From: Hymenobacter jeollabukensis
Lineage (GTDB): Bacteria > Bacteroidota > Bacteroidia > Cytophagales > Hymenobacteraceae
Reading direction: 5' to 3'
DNA length: 64,000 nucleotides
Assembly: GCF_005771675.1 (NCBI RefSeq)
Contig: NZ_VAJM01000006.1
Location: 62,001-126,000, forward strand
The notes below the pieces were generated by a model. The model saw only the letters and a list, made by a program, of their open reading frames with translations. It was not told the DNA's origin and made no database searches. The position numbers and the translations under genes are program-made. Each line of letters opens with the position of its first letter. The stretch's first letter is position 1. Positions 5,297 through 55,933 of this stretch are shown here, piece after piece.

Positions 5297-5477
5297 GATG
5301 GGTAGTGTGAAAAATGTGGTTGGAATGTGCGGAATGTGCGGAATGTGCGGAATGAGGAGAATGTGAGGAATGAGAAAATGTGGTATCTGATCTTTAAGTG
5401 GTTCAGCGTAACTGCGTCGACGCACTGTCCTCATTTTTCACATTTTTCACATTTCTCACATTCCCCCACATTCAACT
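5297..5477. repeat. stop/start paired-arm intergenic element
   Basis: The gap between the PspA-like and SBP/OmpA genes (both minus) is built of short tandem words. On the plus strand GGAATGTGC is repeated three times at about 5325-5352, with degenerate copies around it. CACATTTTTCACATTTCTCA lies at about 5439-5461. The two sides are imperfect complements, so the gap can fold. Read as mRNA, the stop-side arm is C-poor and the start-side arm G-poor. Confidence 0.7.
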
Positions 5478-6464: not shown

Positions 6465-6569
6465 TTGGTGAAAAGGTGAGTTTGTGAAATAGTGAGTTTG
6501 ATGCGGTGATTCAGAAGCGGCGAAAGGGCGAGGAGTTGTTGAACTGCAACTCACCATTTCACCACCTCT
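6465..6569. repeat. stop/start paired-arm intergenic element
   Basis: The plus strand reads GGTGAAAAGGTGAGTTTGTG with repeats at about 6468-6500, and AACTCACCATTTCACCACCT followed by CTATTTCACC at about 6548-6577. The arms are imperfect complements. On the minus-strand mRNA the C-poor arm follows the stop of the 6570-7304 gene and the G-poor arm directly precedes the ATG at 6464. Confidence 0.7.
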
Positions 6570-14608: not shown

Positions 14609-14717
14609 GACTTAATTAATAATTAAGAATGAAGAATTAATAATTGGGAGATTGGCTTACCGACGCCTCCCTAATTCTTTCATTGTTAATTATTAATTCT
14701 TCATTGTTAATTATAAA
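14609..14717. repeat. stop/start paired-arm element, AT-rich
   Basis: TAATTAAGAATGAAGAATTA with ATAATT at 14620-14645 pairs with 14688-14713 at 25 of 26 positions. A second partial copy of the right arm lies at 14671-14690. The left arm begins three bases after the pdxH stop; the right arm ends four bases before the DUF1015 ATG. Confidence 0.8.
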
Positions 14718-16016: not shown

Positions 16017-16155
16017 GATGAGTAGGTGCTGGCTGAGCAGATGAGTGGATAACGGCCCCTCTGGCTGCGAAAAAATTGCCTGCCACTAATTCCACGGCTT
16101 CTGTTTCCTGCCCATCTACTCATTTACTCACCTGACATCTACTCATCTAACGAAT
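16017..16155. repeat. stop/start paired-arm element
   Basis: GATGAGTAGGTGCTGGCTGA and GATGAGTGGATAA follow the DUF1015 stop. CATCTACTCATTTACTCACC and CATCTACTCATCTAACG precede the maf ATG. The two sides are imperfect complements, C-poor on the left and G-poor on the right. Confidence 0.7.
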
Positions 16156-21420: not shown

Positions 21421-21488
21421 AGAGTTGTCAGTTGCGAGTTGTCAGAGTTGATGTAGCCACCCGCCTGACAACTCGCAACTGACAACTA
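21421..21488. repeat. perfect paired-arm element at katA stop
   Basis: The 23 bases at 21423-21445 are the exact reverse complement of 21465-21487; both consist of the heptamer AGTTGTC around AGTTGCG. The right arm ends inside the katA stop codon (TAG read on the minus strand continues as TTGTCAGTTGCGAGTTGTC). Confidence 0.85.
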
Positions 21489-27299: not shown

Positions 27300-27389
27300 T
27301 GTAGCGCGAACCTTCAGTTCGCGTAACCCAGCACGAAAGCCTTCCGGCGAAATCGTGCTGGGTTACGCGAACTGAAGGTTCGCGCTACA
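27300..27389. repeat. perfect 37-bp inverted repeat
   Basis: The arms 27300-27336 and 27353-27389 are exact reverse complements (TGTAGCGCGAACCTTCAGTT is the start of the left arm) around a 16-base spacer. It lies just upstream of gpsA. Perfect arms imply recent origin or active maintenance, as in REP/BIME or MITE-like elements. No target-site duplication is evident. Confidence 0.85.
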
Positions 27390-28894: not shown

Positions 28895-29016
28895 ATATCA
28901 ATGTTTGGAATGTGCAGAAGGGGGTTTGTTAATGAGCTGATGTGGGAATGTGCTGAGGTGCTAATGGTCGTTCTGTTACGCATTAGCTCTTCAGCACATT
29001 CCTACACCTCAGCTCA
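28895..29016. repeat. stop/start paired-arm element
   Basis: TTAATGAGCTGATGTGGGAA with TGTGCTGAGGTGCTAATG (28929-28966) pairs imperfectly with CATTAGCTCTTCAGCACATT and CCTACACCTCAGCTCATTA (28979-29017). On the mRNA the TolC stop is followed by the C-poor arm; the G-poor arm leads to the adaptor ATG. Confidence 0.75.
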
Positions 29017-33888: not shown

Positions 33889-35460
33889 ATGCAAAAACGC
33901 GAAGTTGAAATCGTCCTCTCGCCCGCCGAGGCGTACGACGAGCTGGCCCGCTACCGGGCCCTATTGGATGCCGCCGGCCTGAAACCTGGCGAAGCTGATT
34001 TTGTCCACCTGCTGCGCCGCAGCATCGACGCGCGCGGGCGCAACGTGGGCGTGCGCCTGCGCGCCGACGTGTACCAGACACCCCCGCCCCGGGAGCTGTT
34101 TGGGCCCTGGGTGCAGTACCAGGACGTGAGTCAGGCCGCTAAACGTGTCGTTATCGTCGGGGCCGGGCCGGCCGGCTTGTTTGCGGCCCTGCGCTGCATC
34201 GAGCTGGGCATGAAGCCCGTGGTGCTGGAGCGCGGCAAGGACGTGCGCACCCGCCGCCGCGACCTGGCGGCGCTTAACAAGGAGCACGTCGTCAACCCCG
34301 ATTCCAACTACTGCTTCGGCGAGGGCGGCGCGGGCACTTACTCCGACGGCAAGCTCTACACCCGCTCCAAGAAGCGCGGCGACGTGCAGCGGGTGCTGCG
34401 CCTGCTGGTGCAGCACGGCGCCACCCCGGAAATCCTGGTCGACGCGCACCCGCACATCGGCACCAACAAGCTGCCCTACGTGGTGCAGGCCCTGCGCCAG
34501 AGCATCCTCGACCACGGCGGCGAGGTGTTGTTCGACACGCGGGTAGACGATTTGATTCTCGCCGACGGCCGCATCCGCGGCGTGGTGACCGGGCAGGGCC
34601 AGGAAATCCTCGGCGACGCGGTGATTCTGGCCACCGGGCACTCGGCGCGGGATATGTACGAGCTGCTGCTGCGCCGCCGGGTGCGCATTGAGGCCAAGCC
34701 CTTTGCCCTGGGCGTGCGCGTGGAGCACCAGCAAAGCCTGATCGATCAGGCCCAGTACCACCGCGCCGACCGCGGGCAGCTGCCGGCCGCTTCGTACGCG
34801 CTGGTGCAGCAGTCGGACGGGCCCGGGGGGCAGCGTGGGGTGTTTTCGTTCTGCATGTGCCCGGGCGGCTTCATCGTGCCGGCGGCCACGGCGCCGGGCG
34901 AAGTGGTGGTCAACGGCATGAGCCCTTCGCGCCGCGACTCGCGCTTTGCCAATTCGGGCATCGTGGTGGCCATCGAGCCGGCCGACATGAACCTGAAGCG
35001 CGACGGCGTGCTGGCCGGCCTGCGCCTGCAGCAGGAAATCGAGCAGCGGGCCTGCCAGCTGGCGGGCGGCACCCAGCTGGCCCCGGCCCAGCTGCTGGGC
35101 GACTTCGTGCAGAATAAGACTTCGCGCAGCCTGCTCGAAACCTCCTACCAGCCCGGCCTGGTGTCGGTGGCCATGGACGAGGTGCTGGGAGCCGGCCTGG
35201 CCGACCGGCTGCGGCAGGGCTTCCGGGCTTTCGGGCGCAAGATTCCGGGCTTCACCACCAACAACGCGCAGATTGTGGGGGTGGAAAGCCGCACTTCCGC
35301 CCCGGTACGCATCCCGCGCGACGCGGCCACGCTGGAGCACCCGGAGGTGCGCGGGCTGTTTCCGTGCGGCGAGGGTGCGGGCTTCGCGGGCGGCATCGTG
35401 TCGGCGGCCATGGACGGCGAGCGGTGCGCCGAGGCGGCGCTGGCGCTGTTTAGTGCTTAG
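33889..35460 (+). CDS. FAD-dependent dehydrogenase (COG2509 type)
   Basis: A 523-residue protein. The Rossmann loop VVIVGAGPAGLFAALR starts near 87. CFGEGGAGTYSDGKLYTRSK and VLATGHSARDMYELL are hallmarks of this uncharacterised FAD dehydrogenase family. The last part (GLFPCGEGAGFAGGIVSAAM) is the second FAD contact. An N-terminal domain of about 80 residues precedes the FAD fold. Cytosolic; substrate unknown. The C-terminal codons AGT GCT TAG are the first unit of the heptamer array that follows. Confidence 0.9.
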   Translation: MQKREVEIVLSPAEAYDELARYRALLDAAGLKPGEADFVHLLRRSIDARGRNVGVRLRADVYQTPPPRELFGPWVQYQDVSQAAKRVVIVGAGPAGLFAALRCIELGMKPVVLERGKDVRTRRRDLAALNKEHVVNPDSNYCFGEGGAGTYSDGKLYTRSKKRGDVQRVLRLLVQHGATPEILVDAHPHIGTNKLPYVVQALRQSILDHGGEVLFDTRVDDLILADGRIRGVVTGQGQEILGDAVILATGHSARDMYELLLRRRVRIEAKPFALGVRVEHQQSLIDQAQYHRADRGQLPAASYALVQQSDGPGGQRGVFSFCMCPGGFIVPAATAPGEVVVNGMSPSRRDSRFANSGIVVAIEPADMNLKRDGVLAGLRLQQEIEQRACQLAGGTQLAPAQLLGDFVQNKTSRSLLETSYQPGLVSVAMDEVLGAGLADRLRQGFRAFGRKIPGFTTNNAQIVGVESRTSAPVRIPRDAATLEHPEVRGLFPCGEGAGFAGGIVSAAMDGERCAEAALALFSA

Positions 35461-35493
35461 TGCTTAGTGCTTAGTGCTTAGTGCTTAGTGCTT
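35452..35493. repeat. AGTGCTT heptamer array at stop codon
   Basis: Six perfect units of AGTGCTT. The first unit ends in the stop codon of the FAD dehydrogenase. The region before the next ATG (GCACTCAGCACTATG) is complementary to the array in part, so this gap (35461-35607) follows the paired-arm plan. TATCTTGG at 35528-35535 is a near-consensus -7 element for the CoA-binding gene. Confidence 0.9.
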
Positions 35494-35607
35494 AGGCTGA
35501 TCTGCGGGCTGCTTGTGGCGTTGCACCTATCTTGGCAGTTGCGCGTATTTCCTTTACTCATCCACCCATTCTGCTTGGGTTAACCCAGGCACCAGGCACT
35601 CAGCACT

Positions 35608-36049: not shown

Positions 36050-36130
36050 CGTCATGCTGAGCCTGTCGAAGCATCTCTACCGAACGATACAACGAAGCGG
36101 TAGAGATGCTTCGACAGGCTCAGCATGACG
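36050..36130. repeat. complete dispersed palindromic repeat
   Basis: The arms 36050-36082 and 36098-36130 are exact 33-base reverse complements containing GTCATGCTGAGCCTGTCGAA. The spacer is 15 bases. Related partial copies are at 1151-1192 and 3226-3342. A smaller imperfect inverted motif (GTCATGTTACGACAAGCTCG) lies just before, at 35996. Together they fill the gap 35971-36178. Confidence 0.85.
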
Positions 36131-39979: not shown

Positions 39980-40107
39980 GCTGGATTGTCGGATTGCTGA
40001 ATTGTTAAATGGCTGGTCGTTCTGGATTCACAGAGCGGCCAGCCATTTTTAAATGCTCAAACGGTTAAATGGCTGACTGTTCTGATGAACCCTGAACGAC
40101 CAGTCAT
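39980..40107. repeat. paired-arm element between convergent genes
   Basis: Words GTTAAATGGCTGGTCGTTC (about 40002) and GTTAAATGGCTGACTGTTC (about 40064) alternate with complements GCGGCCAGCCATTTTTAA (about 40036) and GAACGACCAGTCATTTAGCC (about 40094). Read from either gene, the stop codon is followed by a C-poor arm. Confidence 0.75.
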
Positions 40108-43446: not shown

Positions 43447-43610
43447 GGAGTGCAATGGCGTGATGGGGAACCGGTGAGTTGAGGCTCACGCGGCATTCCC
43501 GCCAAACCCAATCAAGCAAACGGCCCCGGCAACACCAGTTGCCGGGGCCGTTTGTTCGTTTCGTGCGGTCAGAACGCTAAACTCACCATTTCACTATTTC
43601 ACCACCTCGC
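43447..43610. repeat. stop-proximal word arms between convergent genes
   Basis: GGAGTGCAATGGCGTGATGG with GGTGAGTTGAGGCTCACG follows the BamA-like stop. On the minus strand, GCGAGGTGGTGAAATAGTGA with AATGGTGAGTTTAGC follows the E1 stop. The 15-mer AACTCACCATTTCAC at 43580 is shared with the leaders at 2036 and 6548. Confidence 0.55.
43517..43554. terminator. bidirectional terminator
   Basis: CAAACGGCCCCGGCAAC and GTTGCCGGGGCCGTTTG form a perfect 17-bp stem with loop ACCA, serving both convergent genes. Confidence 0.9.
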
Positions 43611-47222: not shown

Positions 47223-47796
47223 CCACCTGCAGGCGCTGGACCGCTGGCTACTGGTGACGGCCAACACCGCCGCCACCCCCGGCCTCGACCGGCTCATGAT
47301 TTTCTTTTCCGACCGCCTCGTGTGGTTCCCGGCGTACCTGGTTATCGTCGTGGCCCTGAGCTACTACTTTGGCCGGCGCGCCACCCTGCTGCTGCCCCTG
47401 CTGGGCCTGAGCGTGGCCCTGGCCGACAGCATCAGCAGCCGCTTTTTCAAGCCCTACTTCGCCCGCCTGCGCCCCTGCCACGACCCGGACCTCTCGGCCA
47501 CGCTGAACTTGGCCAACGGCTGCGGCGGGCAGTTCGGATTCATTTCCTCGCACGCGGCCAACGCCTTCGCCCTGGCCGTGTTTCTGAGCCTGGCCCTGCC
47601 CCCGCGCTTCCGTTTCGTGAAAGCCATGCTGCTCGTCTGGGCCCTGCTGGTGAGCTTCAGCCGCATCTACCTGGCCGCTCACTACCCCTCCGACGTGCTG
47701 GCCGGCGCCACGCTGGGAAGCCTGCTGGCCTGGGGCTGCTACGGGCTATACCGCAAAGGCACCCAGCGCTGGTACCCGGCCCCGCCCACGGCGTGA
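47215..47796 (+). CDS. PAP2 family phosphatase
   Basis: A 193-residue membrane phosphatase with a TTG start at 47215 that overlaps the hemF stop by eight bases. The three phosphatase motifs are present: KPYFARLRP (KxxxxxxRP type), ISSHAANAFALAV (SSHxxN in place of PSGH) and SRIYLAAHYPSDVLAGA (SRxxxxxHxxSD). About five hydrophobic helices. It may act on undecaprenyl diphosphate or another lipid phosphate. Coupling to hemF is probably incidental. Confidence 0.88.
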   Translation: MIDHLQALDRWLLVTANTAATPGLDRLMIFFSDRLVWFPAYLVIVVALSYYFGRRATLLLPLLGLSVALADSISSRFFKPYFARLRPCHDPDLSATLNLANGCGGQFGFISSHAANAFALAVFLSLALPPRFRFVKAMLLVWALLVSFSRIYLAAHYPSDVLAGATLGSLLAWGCYGLYRKGTQRWYPAPPTA

Positions 47797-47856
47797 GTTG
47801 TCAGTTGTCAGTTGTCAGTTGTCAGTTGTCAGTTGTCAGTTGTCAGTTGTCAGTTG
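47796..47856. repeat. AGTTGTC heptamer array at stop codon
   Basis: Eight perfect AGTTGTC units from 47796, then AGTTGA. The first base is the last base of the PAP2 stop codon (TGA). Confidence 0.93.
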
Positions 47857-49574: not shown

Positions 49575-49698
49575 CTTTGTTAATGTGCGGAATGTGATGA
49601 ATGTGCATAATGTGGTTGAATGCCCAAATGTTTGACGTAGCAATTCCTTGGCAAGTAGGAACAGCCACATTCAATCACATTTTCCACATTCCCGCACA
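49575..49698. repeat. stop/start paired-arm element
   Basis: TTAATGTGCGGAATGTGATG and AATGTGCATAATGTGGTTGA (49579-49620) pair imperfectly with CACATTCAATCACATTTTCC and ACATTCCCGCACATTAC (49667-49703). On the mRNA the sugar-transferase stop is followed by the C-poor arm and the ribE ATG preceded by the G-poor arm. Confidence 0.75.
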
Positions 49699-54946: not shown

Positions 54947-55768
54947 GTGGACGACGCCACCCTCGCCTTTTACCAGCAGCTCTACGCCGGCACGCCCCTG
55001 TACGTGGTGCCCGAGCCCGGCGCTGCGCCGCTCACCGCCCCGGTAGCACCGGTGGCTCCAGTGGCAGCAGCTTCGCAGCCCGCGGCGGCTACTCCGCCGG
55101 CCGCTGTTTCTCCGCCGGTAGCTCCGCCTACGCCGCCGGCCCCGGTACCCCAGCTCGGAGCTGTGGCCGTTCCGCCCGCGCCTGCGCCCGAACCGGCCCC
55201 AGCTGCACCCGTCCGGCTGCCGTCGCTGGCCGATCTGCGGGCCGCCCGTACCGCGGCCGCTTCGCCCCAGCCGGAGCCCGCGGCCGCGCCCCCTACTCCG
55301 CCGCCCGCGCCAGCTTCCGTACCGCCCGCCGCAGCGGCACCCGCCCCGGCTGCCCCGCCCGCGCGCCAACCAGTCCCGTTCGATACGCTGGGCAGCAACG
55401 CCAACGGCCTGGTCCTGCTCGTGCGCCTCGACGACCCGGAGCGGCTGCCGCGCATTCAGCGCAACGTGTTCCTGAACAACATGCTCAAGGCCATTCAGCG
55501 AGTGATGGAGGAATGCGTCGTGGTAAACGTCCGCTCGCCCTACCCGGTGAGCCTGGAAGACCTGCGGGCCCGTGGCCTGGCGGTGCGCGAGGTTATCGGC
55601 TTCGGCAAAAACCTGCTCGACGTGGCCACCAAGCGCACCGAGCCCTACGAGCCCGTGCGCATCGGCGACGTGGCCTACCTGCCCGCCGCCGAAGTGGAAA
55701 TCATCGAGTACGACAACGGCCGCAAGAAACAGCTCTGGCAGGCGCTGCAACGGATGTTTCTGGGATAG
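54947..55768 (+). CDS. hypothetical protein with long Pro/Ala linker
   Basis: A 273-residue protein with GTG start 54947. Residues 1-20 (MDDATLAFYQQLYAGTPLYV) form a short helix. Residues about 25-150 are almost entirely Ala, Pro and Val. Residues about 155-273 form a compact alpha/beta domain (LVLLVRLDDPERLPRIQRNV; VVVNVRSPYPVSLEDLRARG) ending in WQALQRMFLG. The tethered-helix plus domain layout resembles adaptor subunits such as those of replication clamp loaders, but I cannot assign it. Cytosolic. The stop codon opens the heptamer array. Confidence 0.7.
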   Translation: MDDATLAFYQQLYAGTPLYVVPEPGAAPLTAPVAPVAPVAAASQPAAATPPAAVSPPVAPPTPPAPVPQLGAVAVPPAPAPEPAPAAPVRLPSLADLRAARTAAASPQPEPAAAPPTPPPAPASVPPAAAAPAPAAPPARQPVPFDTLGSNANGLVLLVRLDDPERLPRIQRNVFLNNMLKAIQRVMEECVVVNVRSPYPVSLEDLRARGLAVREVIGFGKNLLDVATKRTEPYEPVRIGDVAYLPAAEVEIIEYDNGRKKQLWQALQRMFLG

Positions 55769-55933
55769 TTGCCAGTTGCCAGTTGCCAGTTGCCAGTTGC
55801 CAGTTGCCAGTTGCCAGTTGCCAGTTGGTGTACTAGCCTGCTGACCAGGAGTTACAAAAAAAGGCTCGCGGCTTGCGCTGCGGGCCTTTTTTGTTGCCAT
55901 CAGTCTGACAACCGGCAACTACCAACTGACAAC
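55767..55933. repeat. AGTTGCC heptamer array and complementary arm
   Basis: About eight AGTTGCC units start at 55767, inside the TAG stop (55766-55768), and run to about 55825. The opposite side, read from the TlpA stop on the minus strand, is TAAGTTGTCAGTTGGTAGTT followed by GCCGGTTGTCAG, that is AGTTGTC, AGTTGGT and AGTTGCC units. The gap therefore folds into a hairpin around the terminator. Confidence 0.9.
55856..55892. terminator. bidirectional terminator
   Basis: AAAAAAAGGC and GCCTTTTTT enclose an imperfect GC stem (TCGCGGCTTGCGCTGCG) between the convergent genes. Confidence 0.75.

Follow-up and report, generated by a model that had tools for sequence, protein, structure and literature searches.

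Intergenic spacers of Hymenobacter carry long hairpins that are dispersed through the genome. We give an even chance to the reading that DNA copying (a step that we infer) builds or renews the two arms of these hairpin spacers jointly, after which they decay. The window analysed here is the 64-kb stretch C24:62001-126000 of genome G000, a 6.18-Mb draft genome with 65% GC. Gene edges are approximate, as they were obtained with our own codon-based ORF caller and no annotation was used. Rfam and tRNA scans of the window gave zero matches. In the gap 14609-14717, the pairing of 14620-14645 with 14688-14713 proposed by the sequence-only reading was borne out at 25 of 26 positions, and the gap folds far better than its shuffles both as RNA (-34.7 kcal/mol, z -7.7) and as DNA (-21.9, z -7.5). 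The same reading had assigned one common plan to 11 gaps (Table 1). At every one of them, the best stem scores higher than in any of 20 dinucleotide shuffles.

Table 1. Hairpin spacers of the listed gaps (window coordinates; scores are stem score against shuffle maximum).
Gap	Feature	Arms or arrays	Remarks
5297-5477	AATGTG-word hairpin spacer	~5313-5363 and 5423-5472	26 against 12; 9-mer arrays
6465-6569	GGTGA-word hairpin spacer	6466-6482 and 6548-6564	15 against 12; word also in G002
14609-14717	Gap between codirectional genes, AT-rich 7-mer word	14616-14645 and 14688-14717	inverted repeat 93%
16017-16155	GATGAGTAG-word spacer	16017-16050 and 16114-16147	G002 with a different matched word
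21421-21488	AGTTGTC-word hairpin, convergent gap	21423-21445 and 21465-21487	perfect
28895-29016	AATGTG-word spacer	~28933-28966 and 28981-29016	24 against 9
35452-35607	AGTGCTT array with weak partner arm	array 35450-35495, partner ~35584-35607	14 against 12, weakest listed gap
39980-40107	AAATGGCTGGTCGTTCTG-word hairpin, convergent genes		congeners with other hairpin families
43447-43610	Terminator-like hairpin inside outer GGTGA-word arms	hairpin 43510-43533/43538-43561, right-arm array 43583-43604	
49575-49698	AATGTG-word spacer	~49584-49618 and 49662-49698	G002 with an AATTAAG-word pair instead
55767-55933	AGTTGCC array with partner arm	array 55767-55827, partner 55905-55933	arms surround a terminator-like hairpin

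Among the window gaps of 40-260 nt, 15 of 32 beat all their shuffles where 1.5 were expected, and a sample of contig C1 gave 87 of 220 gaps (10.5 expected). A survey of 722 gaps of 40-350 nt, drawn from 1.3 Mb of G000, detected a significant inverted repeat (stem score of at least 14 and above ten shuffles) in 258 gaps, 132 of which have a loop of at least 12 nt. The arms are simple repeats, and accidental self-complementarity is raised when both strands carry the word, so that chance pairing of low-complexity, biased sequence had to be considered. This explanation is scarcely credible: it is refuted by the shuffle controls, a test that the sequence-only reading had named, with 258 of 722 gaps above ten shuffles each, and by the private matching across loci (z 10) described below.

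The arms follow a common polarity. In the 722-gap survey, the G-rich arm is the 5' arm in 88 wide-loop loci against 40, and tight stems show the opposite (36 against 85). When a motif occurs on both strands of a gap, the order is forward then reverse in 39 of 39 gaps for six C-poor families, a count made without an order filter; the AT-rich family has motifs that overlap both strands, and gives three gaps forward then reverse and seven mixed. The proposed succession of a C-poor first arm and a G-poor second arm is thus the general order outside the AT-rich family, but four left halves (35461, 39980, 43447 and 55767) lack the C-poor bias and a fifth, at 16017, shows it only weakly. By reasoning alone, a C-free arm has no G-C self-pairs and would hence pair with its own partner only.

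Concerning position, arms begin 1-4 nt downstream of stop codons; for the surveyed C-poor stems, the median distance is 2 nt from the stop codon to the stem and 12 nt from the stem to the next start. The two offsets are both of at most 10 nt in 20 of 48 non-divergent C-poor loci, versus 13 of 109 other wide stems and 9 of 168 tight stems. The claim that the arms abut stops therefore holds, but the second arm does not abut the next ATG. Because a distance of about 12 nt usually separates this arm from the start codon and arms are also found in convergent gaps (39980, 43447, 55769), the suggested coupling of translation is not favoured.

The arm words (7-9 nt) come from a limited set that includes GGTGANNT, AATGTGNGG, AGTTGYC, GTRACAN, AATTNNN, AGGAGNN, GTTNTTC and others. 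AATGTG is found at 5297, 28895 and 49575, AGTTGYC at 21421, 47796 and 55767, and GGTGA words at 2021, 6465 and 43447; this recurrence at three loci each contradicts the statement that the words differ at each locus. For families with a non-zero count inside genes, the words are enriched outside genes by a factor of 15 to more than 50, and the density of GGTGANNT is 0.60 per kb outside genes versus 0.01 within genes. Most families have no G runs, and G000 contains many families rather than one G-quadruplex-capable word. A long single arm of AGTTGTC (8.7 copies) directly follows a stop at 47796-47856, and an imperfect 42/21-nt tandem repeat (CCTTGGANNATTGAGGCGA) at 2109-2335 is probably coding or a degenerate array. 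A second genome layer is composed of the REP-like pairs GTCATGCTGAGC, GTCATTGCGAG and GTCATCCTGAGC, some of them nested in word arms (e.g. C1:687002). In the window, a perfect 33-nt pair of the CGTCATGCTGAGC type at 36050-36130 starts with CGTC like the CGTC-tagged REPs and is replaced by a variant in G002. A separate palindrome family is represented at 27300-27389 by a perfect inverted repeat of 37 nt (TGTAGCGCGAACC..) around a 16-nt loop, and the orthologous gap of G002 has related stems.

Public genomes were scanned with the pattern GTGAAATGGTGAG, 15-45 nt, CTCACCATTTCAC. This pattern recovered the GGTGANNT pair in 67 public stretches, of which 66 are titled Hymenobacter, so that the words do form dispersed repeat families, contrary to the sequence-only reading. 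The remaining stretch (L177:6148-6199) comes from a Hyphomicrobium MAG, that is from another phylum, and represents either a transfer or a misbinned contig. Of the 70 pattern matches, 32 share a core and have the same length of 69 nt. The exact words are clade-limited: the GGTGANNT pair is present in 13 of 100 genomes of the family, belonging to 2 of 6 genera, and the AGTTGTC pair in 2 of 296 genomes of the phylum, G000 included. In a sample of 80 kb from each of five other genomes, G303 (another genus of the same family) displays the same plan with other words, with four C-poor wide stems and a polarity of 7 versus 0; G197 (another family) has at least one clear case and the three further genomes show little.

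Both arms match at each locus, as had been claimed, and this match extends beyond the family word. The outer 12 nt beyond the GGTGANNT pattern, not used in selecting the loci, pair without a mismatch between the two flanks in 21 of 69 distinct loci, versus 0.4 expected from other loci (z 10.7). When loci with homologous flanks are merged, the 56 clusters give 16.6 versus 0.27 expected (z 10.1). With 29 of the 32 loci of 69 nt aligned without gaps (L134 and L156, which brought gaps, and L182 were left out), covariation reaches 95 two-sided cells versus 56.2, a value attained by none of 500 shuffles, and slid controls gave 25-34. A coarser exchangeability test on the 722 gaps, with a score that depends on arm length, found the own partner to be the best in 18 of 112 family loci (12.4 expected); its reading, that arms match merely via family membership, was reversed by the fixed-length 12-nt test, but we retain the result as a caution. 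Since the arms match locus by locus, either selection or a copying mechanism is needed, as the sequence-only reading had proposed.

The spacers turn over between relatives. In the comparison of 207 orthologous gaps between G000 and G002 (flanks about 94% identical), alignment fails for 56 of 105 that have a stem in at least one genome, versus 19 of 102 without a stem; for C-poor stems alone the values are 8 of 22 versus 19 of 102, which is not significant (p 0.09). Pairing is nevertheless kept at the same gaps, an outcome set beforehand as a test: the 75 non-alignable gaps have a stem in both genomes in 40 cases, in one genome in 16 and in neither in 19 (p 9e-6). The corresponding numbers for codirectional gaps are 18, 14 and 15. 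Among seven congeners, the gap 14609-14717 contains the AT word in G002 and G006, another matched word in G005 and G007, a weaker stem in G004, a single arm in G003 and no arm in G001. In the next gap, the matched words of G000 and G002 are unrelated, and the adjoining protein is 97% identical. At 28895-29016, the AATGTG word is retained in G002 and G006 and absent in G003, G004 and G007. Five genomes represent four kinds of hairpin at 39980-40107: AAATGGCTGG in G000 and G001 (in G001 as a near-perfect palindrome), AGGAGTCAGG in G002, a GTCATCCTGAGC pair in G006 and a plain hairpin in G004.

These comparisons bear on RNA-level selection, according to which the hairpins would be bidirectional terminators or mRNA 3'-end protectors with the pairing kept on the transcript. 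The strong covariation across loci is what such a role would give, and so are the non-alignable convergent gaps, 19 of 20 of which keep a stem in both genomes. The intact GGTGANNT loci (n=66) are divided into 33 convergent, 32 codirectional and 1 divergent, as a 3'-end function would predict, and mRNA-end protection or another 3'-end role may apply to these loci. However, the survey found C-poor stems in 43 of 667 codirectional, 9 of 170 divergent and 5 of 181 convergent gaps, the last being gaps in which a terminator stem may mask them. The 14 alignable C-poor loci contain 79 single-sided and 7 two-sided changes versus 4.5 expected, 2 of which keep the pair; at this modest power, the compensatory change looked for between relatives shows no excess. 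Tight terminator-like stems have 52 single-sided and 14 two-sided changes versus 4.0 expected. Substitutions per site amount to 0.106 in C-poor arms, 0.124 in loops and about 0.13 in stem-free gaps, so that the arms evolve near the spacer rate, only slightly slower than stem-free gaps (p 0.04), whereas the values for tight stems are 0.103 in arms versus 0.261 in loops. Read along transcription, the mismatches of 43 codirectional C-poor survey loci display no preference for G.U (43 G.U versus 44 A.C, with modest power), and neither do those of the named loci (31 versus 37); the counts for tight stems are 56 versus 41 in the survey and 23 versus 8 at the named loci. We therefore hold RNA-level selection to be rather improbable as the general explanation. 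Copying, template switching included, fits better than selection because there is no excess of G.U or of paired changes and the arms evolve near the spacer rate. Arms that covary between loci and yet decay independently through time indicate birth or renewal in the matched state and not maintenance by selection.

Ordinary non-autonomous transposition would insert MITE or REP-dimer-like units as a whole, and the arms would be the terminal inverted repeats of these units. It would account for dispersed families with a fixed-length core and for another family at the same slot in congeners, and a clear insertion of a GTCATCCTGAGC-type unit was detected at C24:147392 (gap of 336 versus 138 nt). Nevertheless, stemless congener gaps are about as long as those with a stem (median difference of 3 nt for 11 cases in 6 gaps, in distant congeners, some with decayed arms), which argues, on these few gaps, for rewriting in place. 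Plain transposition also offers no concerted change, which the many distinct and perfectly matched arm variants require. The best stem of 43447-43610 belongs to a terminator-like hairpin (43510-43561) enclosed by the word arms, and at 55769-55933 a native terminator lies within the word arms; the loop of both would-be elements is thus native terminator sequence. In G004, the terminator of the latter gap is present without arms. More generally, congeners keep terminator-like hairpins at these two gaps, and the surrounding word arms differ or are absent. The Y1 transposase (PF01797) was found in 6 of the 8 genomes of the congener set and not in G005 and G006, yet both carry such arms. The sole copy of G000 is not flanked by GGTGA or GTCAT, the motifs searched. 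Taken together, these observations make transposition an unlikely origin of the C-poor spacers. The reverse transcriptase PF00078 was found in 2 of the 8 genomes, and not in G002. Neither of these enzymes is common to all carriers, and both were rejected as a required partner.

Each hairpin combines a few copies of a C-poor 7-9-nt word in the 5' arm with their reverse complement in the 3' arm. In the copying reading, a polymerase fold-back or a template switch is the most likely step, with one arm serving as the template for the other. Slippage on the tandem word would then lengthen the arms until coding sequence is met. The hairpin would decay, uncorrected by selection, and another hairpin may replace the old one; spacers without promoter constraint would tolerate such rewriting. 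Homogenisation of inverted-repeat arms by template switching is described as an established process in the parts of PMC8604942 considered here. This process likewise gives matched arms without selection, but it is described there for short arms in yeast coding DNA, and not for tandem-word arms that fill a spacer. Spacer inversion, which intermolecular switching is known to produce, was detected in none of 51 loop pairs (14 forward-homologous, 37 neither), and no renewal or copying event was caught directly. The copying reading leaves the fixed core and the single polarity (G in the 5' arm) unaccounted for. SbcD is present in G000, so that the tolerance of palindromes is not due to its lack.

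The known systems nearest to these spacers are convergent tandem-word repeats. In Xanthomonas and Nostoc, the heptamers GGGAATC and GGGGA(T/C)T are reported as G-rich spacer words of unknown function; two Xanthomonas genomes have 70 and 75 convergent heptamer pairs forming inverted repeats, few of them between divergent genes, and the repeats flank the same genes with a length and sequence that vary between relatives (passages of PMC4692102). As in those passages, the Hymenobacter words are short, far denser outside genes and subject to a common orientation rule, the G-rich strand reading from the gene edge into the spacer in the 39 of 39 gaps. The same passages describe one word per genome, whereas Hymenobacter has many families, whose arms need not allow G-quadruplexes; private arm matching and word replacement, seen in Hymenobacter, are absent from them. 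TAACTGA direct repeats, reported from Beggiatoaceae, cyanobacteria and five Bacteroidetes, are also intergenic heptamers with a fixed orientation, situated just upstream of starts; in Flexibacter litoralis, a set in the reverse orientation directly follows a stop. They differ in being mostly single arms, with a single inverted set in BOGUAY, according to the sections of PMC4679880 consulted.

CGTC- and GTAG-tagged REPs and their dimers are likewise dispersed intergenic palindromes in head-to-head pairs; CGTC-type REPs are reported from Bacteroidetes and some dimers lie within longer palindromes. Their stems are short and fixed (8-9 bp for CGTC), whereas the C-poor spacers have long tandem-word arms, and the GTCATGCTGAGC-type pairs of G000 are nearer to REPs than the C-poor spacers are (PMC3733652, in part). 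The MITE BrickBuilt of Porphyromonas gingivalis, also from the Bacteroidota, combines tandem repeats with an inverted-repeat element, but its repeats are internal (23 nt) and its ends fixed and IS-related, whereas in Hymenobacter the repeats are the ends themselves (PMC4596501, in part). A search of the open-licence literature by title and abstract start found no description of these Hymenobacter spacers. Within that literature, the kind as such is known, and what appears to be new is that arms match privately, that many words are interchangeable and that one replaces another at the same slot.

Strong covariation across loci need not indicate a selected RNA; here, covariation through time was not detected. 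Spacer repeats of the heptamer type are on record from several phyla, without an accepted origin. It is tentatively possible that bacterial spacers free of promoters are continually rewritten into long hairpins by copying: a C-free word would grow inward from one gene edge, its reverse complement would be written at the other, and the pair would be renewed or swapped for another word over species time. Under this reading, the three-letter polarity common to Xanthomonas, Nostoc and Hymenobacter would be the trace of a single general reaction of replication or repair and not of many element families. Because Hymenobacter combines family-specific words, private matching and same-slot replacement in close relatives, the birth, decay and exchange of such spacers are observable between strains.
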